Shown here: piece after piece, positions 22,868 through 57,556 of the stretch
How positions within the stretch are numbered: the stretch's first letter is position 1
Layout: each line of letters starts with the position of its first letter
From: Candidatus Gastranaerophilales bacterium
Lineage (GTDB): Bacteria; Cyanobacteriota; Vampirovibrionia; Gastranaerophilales; Gastranaerophilaceae
NCBI GenBank assembly: GCA_944324175.1
Contig: CALUVH010000001.1
Span: 1-64,000, forward strand
Reading direction: 5' to 3'
DNA: 64,000 bases
The notes under the pieces: model-generated
The model's input: only the letters and a program-made list of their open reading frames with translations
The model's database searches: none
Told to the model about the DNA's origin: nothing
Made by a program: the position numbers and the translations under genes

Positions 22868-22958
22868 TATCTTACTCCTACATGTTAACTATGTTTATTT
22901 TAAATTAAATTGTACGAAAATGCAATTACACAGAATAATTAAGTAAAATGTAACAAAA

Positions 22959-23020
22959 TGTTAACAAAAAACGAGTATATAGCAATTTAATACAAAGTAT
23001 ATACTTTATATATTTAAGAG
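22959..23020 (+). promoter_or_regulatory. Two-part promoter element, copy 1 (remote copy)
   Basis: TGTTAA at 22959-22964 lies 38 nt before GTATATACTTTATATAT at 22997, followed by TTAAGAG. The box starts 46 nt before the ATG at 23043. The same pair, with the same spacing, stands before the genes at 54164, 55863 and 56846. Confidence 0.7.
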
Positions 23021-23042: not shown

Positions 23043-23657
23043 ATGGGTTTTTTAACCAGTAACTTTATCAATTTAATGCTGACGAGGGAGCAGAACCGAT
23101 TAAATGCTCGCTTAACCAGTATTATGTCTCGAATTCGATCAGCTAAAAGGCAATCAGAAAATGTTGAGAGGCAGATTAGTAATAATTTGCGAATGCAACA
23201 GAATTCAATACGTGCTTATGGCTCGCAAATGATGCAGCAAGCTCAGTTGAGCTCGCAAATGAACGCATATAATAGTATTTTTGGTGCACAAGCTCAGGCT
23301 GCGGGTATGGATCCTATGGCTTATGCACAAAATCTTATGCAAACTGATAATAGTGCCTTTACAAAAGCTATGTCTACAGGATCATCTGTATTTAGTATGG
23401 CATTATCACAAGGACAACAGAGTACTGCAGGAATACAAACTTGGATGCAGTCAGCTTTATCACAGGCTGAACAAGAAGCCGAAATTGCTAAAGAAATGCA
23501 GTTGCAGCCACTCAAAGATCTTGCAGAGGATCTTGAAGTTGAAAAGACACAAATTGAAGCTGATTTACAACTCAACAAGCAATGGAAAGATTCAGCTAAA
23601 GAAGATGTTAAAAATAGCGTTGAATCGTTTAAACCAAACTATGGTGGTAATGCATAA
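23043..23657 (+). CDS. Hypothetical coiled-coil protein under the shared promoter element
   Basis: 204 residues with no signal peptide or membrane span. The N-terminal ~70 residues are helical and Arg/Gln-rich (LTREQNRLNARL, RQSENVERQISNN). The middle is Gln/Ala/Met/Ser-rich (QMMQQAQLSSQMNAY, AQAQAAGMDPMAYAQ) and the C-terminus is a coiled coil (QEAEIAKEMQLQPLKDLAE). GAGG precedes the ATG. Composition and helical pattern recall flagellar/secretion rod or filament proteins, but no family is identified. It is a single-gene unit with its own terminator and shares its promoter with the tandem envelope genes 31-33 kb away. Confidence 0.75.
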   Translation: MGFLTSNFINLMLTREQNRLNARLTSIMSRIRSAKRQSENVERQISNNLRMQQNSIRAYGSQMMQQAQLSSQMNAYNSIFGAQAQAAGMDPMAYAQNLMQTDNSAFTKAMSTGSSVFSMALSQGQQSTAGIQTWMQSALSQAEQEAEIAKEMQLQPLKDLAEDLEVEKTQIEADLQLNKQWKDSAKEDVKNSVESFKPNYGGNA

Positions 23658-49724: not shown

Positions 49725-51683
49725 ATGGGAAACTTCAAAACTAAACTTAAATCAAAGAGCTTTTTTGTATATTCAACATTGATGCATATAATTTTATCTA
49801 TTGCATTGATAATCACATCGTACTTATTTTTTGTGCCAAATGTGTACAATTTTATGGTACGAAATTTTGCAGCTTCTGACACTGGGAGTAAGGACATTGT
49901 TCTAATTGTTATTGACGACAAATCTGTGGACACACTTAGATGGCCATGGAAAAGGGAAGTTTACGCAAAAATCTTTAACTATCTCAATGAATATACTCAA
50001 ACCAAAGTAATAGGCTTTGATTCCTTGCCTGCCGCACCGGATAATGAAGACCCGCAATCTGACATAATTTTTTATAATTCACTGGCAAAGACTAAAAATT
50101 TAGTTGTTGGTTTTGCACCGTCCATTTCTAACAGCAACATTGATAAAAATTACAATAAAGACTTTGCTCATAAATTTTCAATTTCAGTAACTGATAATAG
50201 ATCTTATAAGCCTCAATCTAAGTATAATAGTATTTTTAAATATCCCGACGGATATTTTAGTTCTGTATCAAAAGTAGGTTCCGTAAATAACACTCCCAAT
50301 ATAAACGGGTACTTGGTTCAGGCAGATCAACTCGTGGAAGTCGAAGGTGATTTTTTTGCCTCACTGGCTCTTCGTATGTATTTGGACTTAGTTGAATCAA
50401 ACAAAATTACAATCGATAATTCTAAATTAACGGTAGACAAGACACAAATTGAAATCCCTGGATTTTCAACTCAAAATGGATTTCAAAATTCAATTCATTT
50501 TTATAAAAGACATCCAAACTCAGAGTATTCGCATAAAAAATATTCAGCTATAGATATAATTCAATCATACGACTTAATAAAATCGGGAAAAACGCCAAAA
50601 GTTGATCCCTCTGAGTTTACCAACAAAATTGTACTGGTAGGTGGTAATGCTAAAGCTTCGGCTGTAGCACTGGATGACACAGTGTCAACTCCAATTATGC
50701 AAAAGCACCCTGGGGTCGATATTCAGGCTACGATATTTGATAATATTTTAAATGATGAATTTATCTCACTTCCTCCATTCAGTTGGGAAATTCTTATCAT
50801 TATTATGCTTACGATAGCAACATTTGTCATTATTAGCAGATTATCCTTTTTTAAATCACTTACACTACTTGTAGCCATTGGCTTTCTTTACTTTATATTT
50901 TGTATTCTTGGCTACAGGGCAAATGTTGCGTTTGACCTTATTTCACCTCTACTGGTGCAACTTATTACCATGATTTTTGCCTATTCTTATCGCTTTATTG
51001 TTGAAGGTAAGAATAAAGAAAAAATAAAACAAGCCATGGGCAAATACCTCTCACAAGACATAATGAAAAATGTTGTAAAAAATATTGATGACATAAAATT
51101 AGGCGGAAAAAGAGCTAATGTTAGTGTATTATTTGCAGACATAAGAGGATTTACGAGCATGAGTGAAAAAATGACTGCAGAAGAAGTTTCTATGATTCTA
51201 AATGAATATTTCAGCGAAATTGAACCAATCATAACTAAATACAACGGGGTCATTAATAAATTTATTGGTGATGCTGTAATGGCAATATTTGGGGAGCCAA
51301 TTCAAGATATTAATCATCCGTCAAATGCTGTAAAATGTGCTTACGCCATGCTTAAAAAAGTAGAATGGCTGCAGGATAAATGGCTAAATGAAGGTAAACC
51401 TAAAATCGAGATAGGGATTGGTATAAATACAGGCGACGCCTTTGTCGGTAATATCGGTTCTGAAAAGCGCCTTGAATACACAGTAATAGGCGATATGGTT
51501 AATCTTGCAAGCAGAATTGAAAGTTATAACAAGGTATATAAAACAAATTTTCTTATTAGCTCTTCAACCTACAGCCAAGTTAGCTCAATAGTTGACGTTA
51601 TAAAAATTAGCGAAGTTACCATTAGAGGTAAATCAAAAAAAATGGATATTTACGAAGTTTTGAGAGTAAGTAACAATGATTGA
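49725..51683 (+). CDS. CHASE2-domain class III adenylate cyclase
   Basis: 652 residues. An N-terminal membrane segment (about 18-40) and a large extracytoplasmic CHASE2 sensor (about 45-345; VIDDKSVDTLRWPW) are followed by three membrane segments (about 345-420), then a class III nucleotide cyclase domain. Its metal Asps are in FADIRGFT and GDAVMAIFGEP, with NKFIGD, the substrate-side YTVIGDMVN and R in ASRIES. It should make cAMP in response to an external signal. It is translationally coupled to recG (8-nt overlap), an unrelated gene. Confidence 0.93.
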   Translation: MGNFKTKLKSKSFFVYSTLMHIILSIALIITSYLFFVPNVYNFMVRNFAASDTGSKDIVLIVIDDKSVDTLRWPWKREVYAKIFNYLNEYTQTKVIGFDSLPAAPDNEDPQSDIIFYNSLAKTKNLVVGFAPSISNSNIDKNYNKDFAHKFSISVTDNRSYKPQSKYNSIFKYPDGYFSSVSKVGSVNNTPNINGYLVQADQLVEVEGDFFASLALRMYLDLVESNKITIDNSKLTVDKTQIEIPGFSTQNGFQNSIHFYKRHPNSEYSHKKYSAIDIIQSYDLIKSGKTPKVDPSEFTNKIVLVGGNAKASAVALDDTVSTPIMQKHPGVDIQATIFDNILNDEFISLPPFSWEILIIIMLTIATFVIISRLSFFKSLTLLVAIGFLYFIFCILGYRANVAFDLISPLLVQLITMIFAYSYRFIVEGKNKEKIKQAMGKYLSQDIMKNVVKNIDDIKLGGKRANVSVLFADIRGFTSMSEKMTAEEVSMILNEYFSEIEPIITKYNGVINKFIGDAVMAIFGEPIQDINHPSNAVKCAYAMLKKVEWLQDKWLNEGKPKIEIGIGINTGDAFVGNIGSEKRLEYTVIGDMVNLASRIESYNKVYKTNFLISSSTYSQVSSIVDVIKISEVTIRGKSKKMDIYEVLRVSNND

Positions 51684-54063: not shown

Positions 54064-54079
54064 CTATTATATTAAGTTT

Positions 54080-54142
54080 TGTTAAGCCTCAGCACTTGCA
54101 TAAGGCAATTATTTATTTTGTATATACTTTATATATATACAG
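54080..54142 (+). promoter_or_regulatory. Two-part promoter element, copy 2
   Basis: TGTTAA begins at 54080 and GTATATACTTTATATAT at 54120 (40 nt apart). The box starts 44 nt before the ATG at 54164. It is the same element as before 23043, 55863 and 56846. Confidence 0.75.
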
Positions 54143-54163
54143 AGAAAAAGAGAGGTATAAACT

Positions 54164-55738
54164 ATGGTACACATGCCCCCATACTTTAGAAATCCACCTA
54201 GATACATTAGATCAAGTCACACGGACATTATAAATATAAACGTTGGAAGTGGCTGTGGAGGTCATGTCCATCACTGTTCAGGAGGTTGGGGCATGAGCAA
54301 AGGAATGAGCACAATGTTTGGCATTGGCTTGTTAACAAGTTTCCTTGGCAATTTATTTAATAGAGGTAACAGCCAAGCAACAATGATTCAGCAACCTATG
54401 TTTATGATGCCTCAGCAACCAATGCTATATGGCTACAATAATTACAATATGGGCTATAATGCAGGATTATACACTCCTGGTAGTGCAAACGGAATGCAGA
54501 ACTCAGGTTATAATGCCGGTTTTAATCAAGGATTATATGGAAGCACTAATCCTTACGGACAATATTCAAATATGCAAGGACAATATGGTCAACAACAACA
54601 AACCCTTGCCACAAAGGCGAACGAATTAGTTTCCATGGTTAAGGATTTGGGTAACGATTACGGATTCACATTTGGTGAAAATGAGGAAATACCTAAAATG
54701 TCTGCCGATGGTCAACAATACACATACAAAGGTAAGACGTTTGATACCGTAACTGACCTAAGAAACTTTATTGAAAAACAGGAGGGTCTAGGCTGTACGC
54801 CAAACTCACCCTTAGCACAAGATGATACAGAAATAGTGTCAGAAACTCCAATCGTAATTAACGGTAATGAGGATACAGAATCTGAAGAAACCACTTCGAC
54901 AAATCCTACTACAGCTAATCGGCCAAACGTAACCGATGAAGAACCAGCTGAAGATGTGTCATCACAAAGTAATCAACCTACACAAAATGTTAAGCCTGAA
55001 ACAACTCCTGTCAGTACAAGACCTACACTTTCCGGTAAAGTCATGACAAAAGAACAGTCAGAAATAATGTTTGCTGAGCTTAATGAAGTTTTTGGAGAAA
55101 TACCTGCTGGTGTTGAGCTTAATTCGGATGGAACCTATAATTACGGTAAATATCAAAATATCGGAATTAATGCTTTAAAATACGCAGTATCTGCAAAGAA
55201 AAATTACGAATCTACGCCGGAAACTAAAGTGGACTACAATAACTTTGTAAATAACTACAATGGTAGAATTTACTCAGATGGTCAACTTTCAATTACTAAA
55301 CAGCAAATCTCGAATACAGAAACTCTAGGTGCCTTTTTGGTAAGAAACAACCCTGAAACATCTATAGAACTTGGTAAAATTAGTGCGGAAGACTTCGAGA
55401 AAACGTTTAAAAATATGCTTGAGGACAATGTAAAAAATGCCAAAAACAGTATTACACTAGAAGAATTCATAAAATATCATCAAGCATATGAAGCTAACGC
55501 AAAAAATGGTATACTTAGACGCGATAATGAAAGACAAAAATACGAAACTGTTGATATCACATCCGCAGACTCAGCTAACCTGAGAAATATGTTCAGCGCA
55601 ATGTCTAATGGTAAAAATACTCTAAGCAAAGAACAATATGTTAAATTTATGACTGAATTGTTTAGTCACCATAATGGAAAATTAACAAGAGCACAATTTG
55701 ATGATTTCTGCGTCAATTGGATAAATAAAAACAATTAA
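54164..55738 (+). CDS. Envelope protein A of the tandem trio, with EF-hand-like C-terminus
   Basis: 524 residues. The N-terminus (about 1-45) is polar with a short beta-like TDIININVGSG and a Cys/His patch (GCGGHVHHC). A hydrophobic segment follows (about 48-65, FGIGLLTSFLGNLF) and ends in NRG. Next come a Gln/Met/Tyr/Gly-rich region (65-150), a Thr/Glu/Pro-rich linker (about 220-295) and a C-terminal helical region (about 300-524). That region has EF-hand-like loops (EDNVKNAKNSITLEEF, SHHNGKLTRAQFDDF). The layout matches the next two genes. AGAGAGG precedes the ATG. No signal peptide and no known family as a whole. Confidence 0.75.
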   Translation: MVHMPPYFRNPPRYIRSSHTDIININVGSGCGGHVHHCSGGWGMSKGMSTMFGIGLLTSFLGNLFNRGNSQATMIQQPMFMMPQQPMLYGYNNYNMGYNAGLYTPGSANGMQNSGYNAGFNQGLYGSTNPYGQYSNMQGQYGQQQQTLATKANELVSMVKDLGNDYGFTFGENEEIPKMSADGQQYTYKGKTFDTVTDLRNFIEKQEGLGCTPNSPLAQDDTEIVSETPIVINGNEDTESEETTSTNPTTANRPNVTDEEPAEDVSSQSNQPTQNVKPETTPVSTRPTLSGKVMTKEQSEIMFAELNEVFGEIPAGVELNSDGTYNYGKYQNIGINALKYAVSAKKNYESTPETKVDYNNFVNNYNGRIYSDGQLSITKQQISNTETLGAFLVRNNPETSIELGKISAEDFEKTFKNMLEDNVKNAKNSITLEEFIKYHQAYEANAKNGILRRDNERQKYETVDITSADSANLRNMFSAMSNGKNTLSKEQYVKFMTELFSHHNGKLTRAQFDDFCVNWINKNN

Positions 55739-55742
55739 TCAT

Positions 55743-55774
55743 AACGCCGTCTATCTTTTTAGACGGCGTTTATT
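55743..55774 (+). terminator. Terminator between envelope genes A and B
   Basis: AACGCCGTCT (55743-55752) pairs with AGACGGCGTT (55761-55770), followed by TATT. It separates gene A from the promoter of gene B. Confidence 0.85.
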
Positions 55775-55780
55775 AAGATT

Positions 55781-55841
55781 TGTTAAACTTTTGAATTTAT
55801 CTGAAAAAAAAGCAGCTGTATATACTTTATATATATAAGAA
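55781..55841 (+). promoter_or_regulatory. Two-part promoter element, copy 3
   Basis: TGTTAA at 55781 and GTATATACTTTATATATATAAG from 55818 (37 nt apart). The box starts 45 nt before the ATG at 55863. Confidence 0.75.
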
Positions 55842-55862
55842 CTAAATAAGAGGACGAGTAAT

Positions 55863-56705
55863 ATGACACTTTACAACATGGTTGGTTGTAATACAAGTCG
55901 AACACACTCGGGTGGAGTCACGCTCCGAGCCGGTCAGTTCCGCAGTACAAGAAGTTGCCAAATTAAAAATACAACCATAAACAATACAAATGTCATTATT
56001 AAGCAAAACAATCGAGCCTGCACGTCAGCACCTACTTATTGCGCTGTACCGCAGCAAAGCAATGGGTTGGCAGATATACTAAACTTCATAATGACACTTG
56101 GTGGGCTACTTACTCCACTATTCAAAAAAGACACCTCCCCTCCTGAAGTTGAAGAAGGAAAAGGTGCACCAGAACAAGAAGTCGAAACACCTCCACCGAA
56201 ACAAGAGGTTGTAGCTGAAGAACCTGTAATAGCAAAATCTGTCGATCCACAAGATGTGTACGCAGCAGAAATAACACCGAACACGGTACAAGAAGAAGGT
56301 GCAACACACACGGTAAGACACGGCGAATGCTGGTATGATGTTCTCGATGCAAAATATCCTGGCATACCAAATACAGATAGAAAAGCAGCTATGAGAGCTC
56401 TGAAACAAGCTAATGGTATGACAAATCCAAATTCAGCAGATATGCCAAGAAAAATGTACCTTCCAAATGAAATAACAGTCAATGGTCATACTTACAAGTT
56501 AAATAATGACAATGACGTTATTGGTACAGTTAAAGAGTTCACCACAGGAGGCATGTACAACGCAAATATACCATCTTTTGAATCAACAACATACAGTGTT
56601 ACAGGAACAAAAAATGGTGAAAATGCATACAGTGCAACTTTCGATCAAAAAGCTCAAGCTGAAGCCGCCAAAGCAAAATGGGAAGCTCAAAATGATTCTG
56701 AATAA
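55863..56705 (+). CDS. Envelope protein B of the tandem trio, with LysM-like C-terminus
   Basis: 280 residues. The N-terminal part has Cys and a beta-like NNTNVIIKQNN (about 40-50) and C-A-V patches. A hydrophobic segment (about 68-87) ends in LFKKD. A Pro/Glu-rich linker (90-140) follows. The C-terminal part (about 145-210, HTVRHGECWYDVLDAKYP...LKQANGM...MYLPNEI) resembles a LysM domain, so it may bind peptidoglycan. AGAGGAC precedes the ATG. It shares architecture and promoter with its neighbours; no whole-protein family is known to me. Confidence 0.75.
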   Translation: MTLYNMVGCNTSRTHSGGVTLRAGQFRSTRSCQIKNTTINNTNVIIKQNNRACTSAPTYCAVPQQSNGLADILNFIMTLGGLLTPLFKKDTSPPEVEEGKGAPEQEVETPPPKQEVVAEEPVIAKSVDPQDVYAAEITPNTVQEEGATHTVRHGECWYDVLDAKYPGIPNTDRKAAMRALKQANGMTNPNSADMPRKMYLPNEITVNGHTYKLNNDNDVIGTVKEFTTGGMYNANIPSFESTTYSVTGTKNGENAYSATFDQKAQAEAAKAKWEAQNDSE

Positions 56706-56738
56706 ACTCCTTCCATATATATTGTGGAAGGAGTTTTT
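56704..56738 (+). terminator. Terminator between envelope genes B and C
   Basis: AAACTCCTTCCA pairs with TGGAAGGAGTTT (56704-56735) and is followed by TTT. Confidence 0.85.
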
Positions 56739-56759
56739 TATAGGCAGATTGTTAAGAAA

Positions 56760-56823
56760 TGTTAAAAAGATATATACTAAAAAAGCAATTTTTTTATAAG
56801 TATATACTTTATATATATAAGAG
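56760..56823 (+). promoter_or_regulatory. Two-part promoter element, copy 4
   Basis: TGTTAA at 56760 (another TGTTAA at 56750) and GTATATACTTTATATATATAAG from 56800 (40 nt apart). The box starts 46 nt before the ATG at 56846. Confidence 0.75.
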
Positions 56824-56845
56824 AGTATAACATGAGGAATACAAA

Positions 56846-57556
56846 ATGACAGTCATTGGAGGTATCGCTACAACCCCAAGAAAGGATATTAAACCTGTCG
56901 CGTATAACGGAATACGTTCTACGGGATTTAAAGGTGTAAATGTATTCCCTAGCACAACAGTCGTAAATAAAACGATTGTCGTAAATCAAGATAATGAGTG
57001 TAATTGTAAAAAAAGTAGCGGGAACTTCTGGACAAAATTGGCAGGAGTATTAACTGGAGTAGTCTCAGCACTCGGTATAGGAACTATGATAGCAGGGCTA
57101 TTCAAAAAAGATAAAGCTGAGGAATCGCCGGAAACACAACCGCAACCTCAAGTCCAACCACAGCCAGAAACTCCTGAACCAAGCACAAGTAAGACTTTAT
57201 TCGGAGGACAATTAGAGCAAGTTGTAGTCACAGGCGATGCTTCGAAAGCAAAAAATGGTGTAAAGGCATTCCAAAGCAATTTACCAGAAAATGTTGAAGA
57301 TGCAGCAGCAGAGTTAAAACAAATGTATAGCGGCATTATTAGTGATATTTCGCTTGAGAAACAATCTGATGGAACATACAAAGCAACCATATTGGTACCT
57401 GATACACTTAAACACAGCGGAGCAACTGCTTCTACTACTTTGTATAATATAAAAACATCTGATGATTTGGACACGGCAATTATGAAGGCTATGGACAATT
57501 TACGTGCTGTAGACAACAATCCATTTGCCAGCAAACCTGAAACTGAAGCAACATAA
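56846..57556 (+). CDS. Envelope protein C of the tandem trio
   Basis: 236 residues. The N-terminal part holds a beta-like VNKTIVVNQDN and a CNCKK patch (about 41-57). A hydrophobic segment (about 62-86, GVLTGVVSALGIGTMIAGLF) ends in KKDKAEE. A Pro/Gln/Glu-rich linker follows, and a C-terminal alpha/beta domain (about 115-225; SDGTYKATILVPDTL, TSDDLDTAIMKAMDNL) is not recognised. TGAGGA lies before the ATG. The layout and promoter match genes A and B, so the three form a related set with different outer domains. Confidence 0.75.
   Translation: MTVIGGIATTPRKDIKPVAYNGIRSTGFKGVNVFPSTTVVNKTIVVNQDNECNCKKSSGNFWTKLAGVLTGVVSALGIGTMIAGLFKKDKAEESPETQPQPQVQPQPETPEPSTSKTLFGGQLEQVVVTGDASKAKNGVKAFQSNLPENVEDAAAELKQMYSGIISDISLEKQSDGTYKATILVPDTLKHSGATASTTLYNIKTSDDLDTAIMKAMDNLRAVDNNPFASKPETEAT

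Follow-up and report, generated by a model that had tools for sequence, protein, structure and literature searches.

Gastranaerophilales are non-photosynthetic sisters of the Cyanobacteria and common gut bacteria. In a stretch of 64,000 nt from a genome of this order (the window), three tandem genes and one remote gene each start behind the same compound element. This raises the question of which proteins read this element, and which set of genes is placed under their control.

Architecture of the window promoters

The preliminary description reported a pair of elements, TGTTAA and a downstream box, at narrow spacings before four start codons. All four are present: the window contains exactly four instances of the pattern TGTTAA-N30-36-TATATACTTTATATA (with TGTTAA starting at 22959, 54080, 55781, and 56760), against none in 100 dinucleotide shuffles of it; the bare 17-mer box likewise has four exact copies. 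For the genes at 23043, 54164, 55863, and 56846, TGTTAA precedes the box by 38, 40, 37, and 40 nt, and the start of the box precedes the ATG by 46, 44, 45, and 46 nt, respectively. What had been read as TGTTAA alone is a 10-bp direct repeat (TATTAA/TGTTAA or TGTAAC/TGTTAA), of which TGTTAA makes up the second half, and a further conserved element—GGCAATT, GCAATT, or TGAAA..—sits 9 to 10 nt 5' of the box. Instead of the two parts proposed, the element features three to four: the repeat, a −35-like element, a −10-like element, and GTATATAC (Table 1).

Table 1. Promoter elements, downstream genes, and candidate sigma factor; positions without a prefix refer to the window
Feature	Position	Strand	Basis
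HLR1-like tandem repeat AATGTAACAAAATGTTAA, 10-bp period	22947..22964	+	alignment, HLR1 statistics
−35-like element GCAATT	22982..22987	+	core-pattern scan, core 22982-23012
Box GTATATACTTTATATAT, operator-like GTATATAC plus −10-like TTTATATA	22997..23013	+	exact box matches
204-aa protein, no Pfam match, predicted long helical hairpin	23043..23657	+	
Degenerate HLR1-like repeat TATTAAGTTTTGTTAA, 10-bp period	54070..54085	+	alignment
−35-like element GGCAATT	54104..54110	+	core-pattern scan
Box GTATATACTTTATATAT	54120..54136	+	exact box matches
524-aa protein without signal peptide or Pfam match	54164..55738	+	
Degenerate HLR1-like repeat TATTAAGATTTGTTAA, 10-bp period	55771..55786	+	alignment
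Weak −35-like element TGAAAAA, class B position	55802..55808	+	sequence, alignment
Box GTATATACTTTATATAT	55818..55834	+	exact box matches
280-aa protein without Pfam match, with one hydrophobic segment in its center	55863..56705	+	
HLR1-like repeat TGTTAAGAAATGTTAA, 10-bp period	56750..56765	+	alignment
−35-like element GCAATT, extra ATATATACT ahead of GCAATT	56785..56790	+	core-pattern scan
Box GTATATACTTTATATAT	56800..56816	+	exact box matches
236-aa protein without Pfam match, paralogue-like to 55863	56846..57556	+	
Candidate sigma factor SigX, group-2-like	C8:15128-16036	-	sigma-family profile matches
Small RNA unit, own genome	C1 near 75,130 (L007, L009)	-	class B box promoter

The whole 1.68-Mb genome contains six exact copies of the box and one with a single mismatch, and the reversed control yields none; random genome-wide placement of the pair is thus ruled out. 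With up to one mismatch, the box is found in 38 of 39 genomes (own included) from seven families of the order Gastranaerophilales. Each carrying genome has 1 to 13 copies, compared with 0 to 1 for the reversed control. Sixty sites from relatives were read together with their downstream genes, and 73 promoter copies were aligned. In the alignment, a tandem WWTGTWAM repeat with a 10-bp period lies ahead of the box by about 32 to 49 nt; then comes a −35-like KGMAATT, which ends 9 to 10 nt 5' of the box and takes the form GGCAATT (class A) or TGAAATT (class B). A conserved purine-rich AAGAG follows the box.

The core promoter

A consensus drawn from sites chosen by the box is biased. For an independent test of the core, six genomes of the genus were scanned for GCAATT-N{2,32}-CTTTATATA. 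The scan gave 119 matches, against 3 for the reversed control. As counted by hand from the listing, the gap is 16 nt in about 104 of them, 17 nt in 7, 15 nt in 2, and of another length in 6. Two conserved hexamer-like elements are, hence, placed at sigma-70-type spacing (16–18 nt) just 5' of genes. Many N16 cores have AAAAATACTTTATATA or AAAAATCCTTTATATA where the box has GTATATACTTTATATA, so the box forms a subclass of a broader promoter; TTTATATA is its general −10-like part and GTATATAC a palindrome added in a subset.

The N16 core is present in all 85 sampled members of the genome's own family (2–37 per genome), whereas elsewhere in the phylum it appears in only 7 of 109 genomes, with one or two chance-like matches each. 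In the own genome, about 18 sites are found by the sequence model at E<0.005 and 17 by exact matching of the N16 core—more than the small regulon initially proposed. Nearly all inspected sites have a start codon 15 to 40 nt downstream, which opens an uncharacterized gene. The idea that each gene has its own promoter, controlled by a dedicated regulator, a dedicated sigma factor, or both, is borne out by order-wide conservation, strict spacing, and the location of the sites just 5' of start codons; as a type of explanation, it is well supported.

The upstream repeat and RpaB

The binding site of the cyanobacterial regulator RpaB is HLR1, KTTACAWW-N2-KTTACAWW, with an activating position of about −66 to −45 (PMC13421787). 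The upstream tandem repeat is the reverse complement of this motif. At least 14 of 16 HLR1 positions are matched in 38 of the 73 promoters (1.17 expected in shuffles) and all 16 in 10 of them (0.01 expected), these being promoters gathered by box similarity, some from close relatives, and hence not fully independent. The TGTWA pairs lie exactly 10 apart in 31 of 33 cases, and their offset from the box is fixed. Most copies in the window are degenerate, mostly with TTAA in place of TAAC, and the motif is degenerate or absent at many promoters of class A and of the AAAAATAC type. Counted from the guessed start, the HLR1-like sites occupy about −70 to −53, a few nucleotides upstream of the cyanobacterial activating window.

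The own genome encodes a true RpaB at C6:198-887, as judged by the equivalog NF045944 (361.7 bits, cut-off 330). A single RpaB exceeds this curated cut-off in each of 35 of the 39 genomes (own and 34 of 38 others), and none exceeds it in G004 and G008. Two further OmpR-family regulators are encoded in the genome: one RpaA-like (231 aa) and one PhoB-like (233 aa). Homologues of RpaA, RpaB, and NblS in non-photosynthetic Melainabacteria were reported by Di Rienzi et al. in 2013, where it is stated that they "may have another function" (PMC3787301). Neither the consulted passages of that paper nor literature searches gave a target site or regulon for melainabacterial RpaA, RpaB, or NblS, and a literature search on promoters or sigma factors in Melainabacteria gave nothing relevant.

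The candidate sigma factor SigX

The genome contains eight sigma-70-family genes, including two group-2-like ones besides the candidate termed SigX. The best matches of SigX are the RpoD and cyanobacterial RpoD subfamily models, and it stays below the cut-offs of RpoD and of the other named sigma families matched. Orthologues with 46 to 89% identity are present in 34 of 38 other genomes (35 of 39 with the own one). G037 carries probable split pieces of SigX, and no orthologue was found in G004 and G026, both 99% complete and both with the promoters. In all 26 orthologues read, region 4.2 carries GVTKECIRQ in place of the GVTRERIRQ of RpoD; in 23 of the 26, region 2.4 carries FKA in place of TRA. 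A sigma factor with altered promoter-reading residues, hence, co-occurs with the promoters, the exceptions being G004, G008, and G026. G004 keeps 19 core promoters despite having neither a SigX orthologue nor an RpaB over the cut-off; assembly gaps possibly lie behind the absences of SigX and RpaB.

In most genomes, the SigX gene is preceded by one to three GTATATAC-like octamers, with a spacing of 11 to 12 nt where there are several, which overlap its −10/start region in the order-wide comparison. They can be regarded as a candidate autoregulatory or repressor operator. In one relative (L075), an exact box lies before the sigma gene. SigX is the only sigma factor whose gene was seen with the same GTATATAC operators. 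In 11 genomes, a TTG-type −35 can be placed before the SigX gene, with HLR1-like repeats in forward orientation just upstream; at least 15 of 16 positions are matched by 3 such repeats, compared with 0.02 expected. By its sequence, the promoter of SigX itself looks like the housekeeping type in these 11 genomes.

Genes and RNAs behind the promoters

Pfam and NCBIfam searches with the four window proteins returned nothing beyond a weak FlgD-like match to the 56846 product (E 0.0078), and no segment resembling a signal peptide was seen at the N-terminus of any of the four. Only the 55863 and 56846 products contain a central, moderately hydrophobic segment, one each. The fold prediction of the 23043 product is a confident, soluble-looking helical hairpin, for which fold comparison gave generic coiled-coil matches only, none below E 0.001; that of the 56846 product is of low confidence (pLDDT 46). 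The earlier designation of these products as envelope proteins is, therefore, unproven. Orthologues of 23043 in other genera are preceded by the same promoter.

A separate terminator had been ascribed to each tandem gene. This is true of 54164 (stem of −18.4 kcal/mol, z −6.8) and 55863 (stem of −18.3 kcal/mol, z −5.6), and also of the remote gene 23043 (z −3.3), but 3' of 56846 no terminator-like fold was found (z −0.4).

Behind many class B boxes there is no gene; what follows instead is a unit of 93 to 161 nt that ends in a hairpin and a T-run. This small RNA unit carries repeated CCUACCUUCCUAA-type C/U-rich stretches and occurs in several families, the own genome included, with further copies at L023, L025, L070, L099, L105, L084, L093, L053, and L048. 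An Rfam search with it gave no match. At least one target of the promoter is, to judge by these features, a noncoding RNA. The tandem CCUACCUUCCUAA motifs could pair with ribosome-binding sites.

Some other genes deserve mention in their own right. C19:1015-4564 (L115) and its equivalents in relatives hold a cluster of FliMN-like, FliO, FliP (213 aa), FliQ, and FliR genes; this FliP is the only one in the genome. A FliP match is found in 39 of 39 genomes, mostly as the form of ~215 aa, and a second, longer FliP in about half of them only. This distribution suggests a separate order-wide flagellum-like or nonflagellar export apparatus. The regulon could possibly be the substrate set of such a flagellum-like apparatus; this is not claimed, since none of the examined export genes was seen with the promoter. 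C3:34662-36137 (L109:14662-16137) encodes a 491-aa protein whose match to FlhA is confined to the C-terminal cytosolic half (FHIPEP 321-655); it has no obvious membrane part and is the sole FHIPEP match in the genome. Within the window, a CHASE2-guanylate/adenylate cyclase fusion (49725-51683) lies just upstream of recG.

Proposed mechanism and alternatives

The arrangement that we put at slightly better than an even chance is a regulon specific to Gastranaerophilales, in which SigX reads the core, RpaB activates from the tandem repeats, and GTATATAC serves as a further operator. SigX would recognize KGMAATT as −35 and, 17 nt downstream, TTTATATA as −10. RpaB, a conserved OmpR-family response regulator, would bind the tandem WWTGTWAM-NN-WWTGTWAM and activate from there, at roughly −70 to −53. 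At some promoters, those of the window among them, GTATATAC over the spacer/−10 region would be the operator of a third regulator, which may also act at the promoter of the sigma gene and so provide a second layer; GTATATACTAAGTATATAC is the presumed target DNA of this third regulator. Together, RpaB and SigX may control about 20 to 25 transcription units, including the conserved C/U-rich small RNA. The arrangement builds on observed elements with their spacing, conservation, and taxonomic range, on a true RpaB, and on a SigX with altered promoter-reading residues. We infer the pairing of proteins with elements, activation as the effect, and the start sites.

The core could instead be read by the housekeeping sigma factor or another of the eight, with specificity coming solely from activators at the HLR1-like and GTATATAC sites, as at class-II-like promoters with an atypical −35. 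The distance of 17 nt from GCAATT to TTTATA is normal for sigma-70, two of the other sigma factors are group-2-like, and some genomes without a detected SigX keep the promoters. However, many cores with little or no HLR1 or GTATATAC retain both elements at exact spacing, which suggests that a sigma factor recognizes the core directly, and among the sigma genes only that of SigX was seen with the same GTATATAC operators. We judge this alternative unlikely. To the question of which protein binds the tandem repeat, the RpaA-like or the PhoB-like regulator offers another answer: both are encoded, the window copies are TTAA variants and not perfect HLR1, and TTAACA-type direct repeats are known for PhoB/PhoP-type regulators too. 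Against this stand the period of exactly 10 bp, a consensus equal to the published HLR1 with ten perfect matches, and the presence of RpaB as a single copy above the curated cut-off in 35 of 39 genomes, and such a substitution appears rather improbable.

The box itself is very AT-rich and quasi-palindromic, as might be expected of a mobile or replication-associated repeat that is no promoter. This reading was rejected, because the flanking sequences are unrelated and the distance to the genes is fixed: in seven families, the box keeps a constant distance to start codons on the same strand, downstream sequences are unrelated, and a −35-like element stands at a fixed spacing of 17 nt. It is hardly credible.

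Implications and comparison with known systems

A wider reading, plausible but somewhat short of an even chance, is that RpaB, a regulator of photosynthesis control, was kept or repurposed in this non-photosynthetic lineage and runs, jointly with a lineage-specific sigma factor, a regulon made up of uncharacterized proteins and a conserved C/U-rich small RNA; the sigma gene itself would be under the same regulator. If true, the RpaB/HLR1 switch either was repurposed or served such a role ancestrally, before photosynthesis, and the reading bears on the function of the switch before oxygenic photosynthesis. RpaB without photosynthesis has been known in Melainabacteria since 2013, in a paper that assigns it no function (PMC3787301); new here is a candidate job. 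A binding motif, a promoter consensus, a candidate sigma factor, and a list of targets across the order are supplied. As these are now concrete, in vitro experiments on purified proteins can address the role of RpaB, although cultures are scarce.

The system shares with the RpaB/HLR1 regulon of Cyanobacteria an 18-bp tandem motif with 10-bp period, present as the reverse complement, a motif position 5' of the core promoter that would be close to the activating window by the guessed start, and a true RpaB. It differs in its non-photosynthetic host, in targets that are uncharacterized proteins and a small RNA and not photosystem genes, in the reversed orientation of the motif at most targets, and in the joining of the motif to an unusual core and the GTATATAC element. 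The regulators themselves agree with the RpaA, RpaB, and NblS homologues that Di Rienzi et al. 2013 (PMC3787301) report in this lineage. SigX resembles the cyanobacterial group 2 (RpoD-like alternative) sigma factors in belonging to the RpoD family and in having regions 2 to 4. Compared with RpoD, its 2.4 helix usually carries F for T and its region 4.2 VTKECIRQ for VTRERIRQ, and its predicted promoter, GCAATT-N17-TTTATATA, differs from TTGACA-N17-TATAAT.
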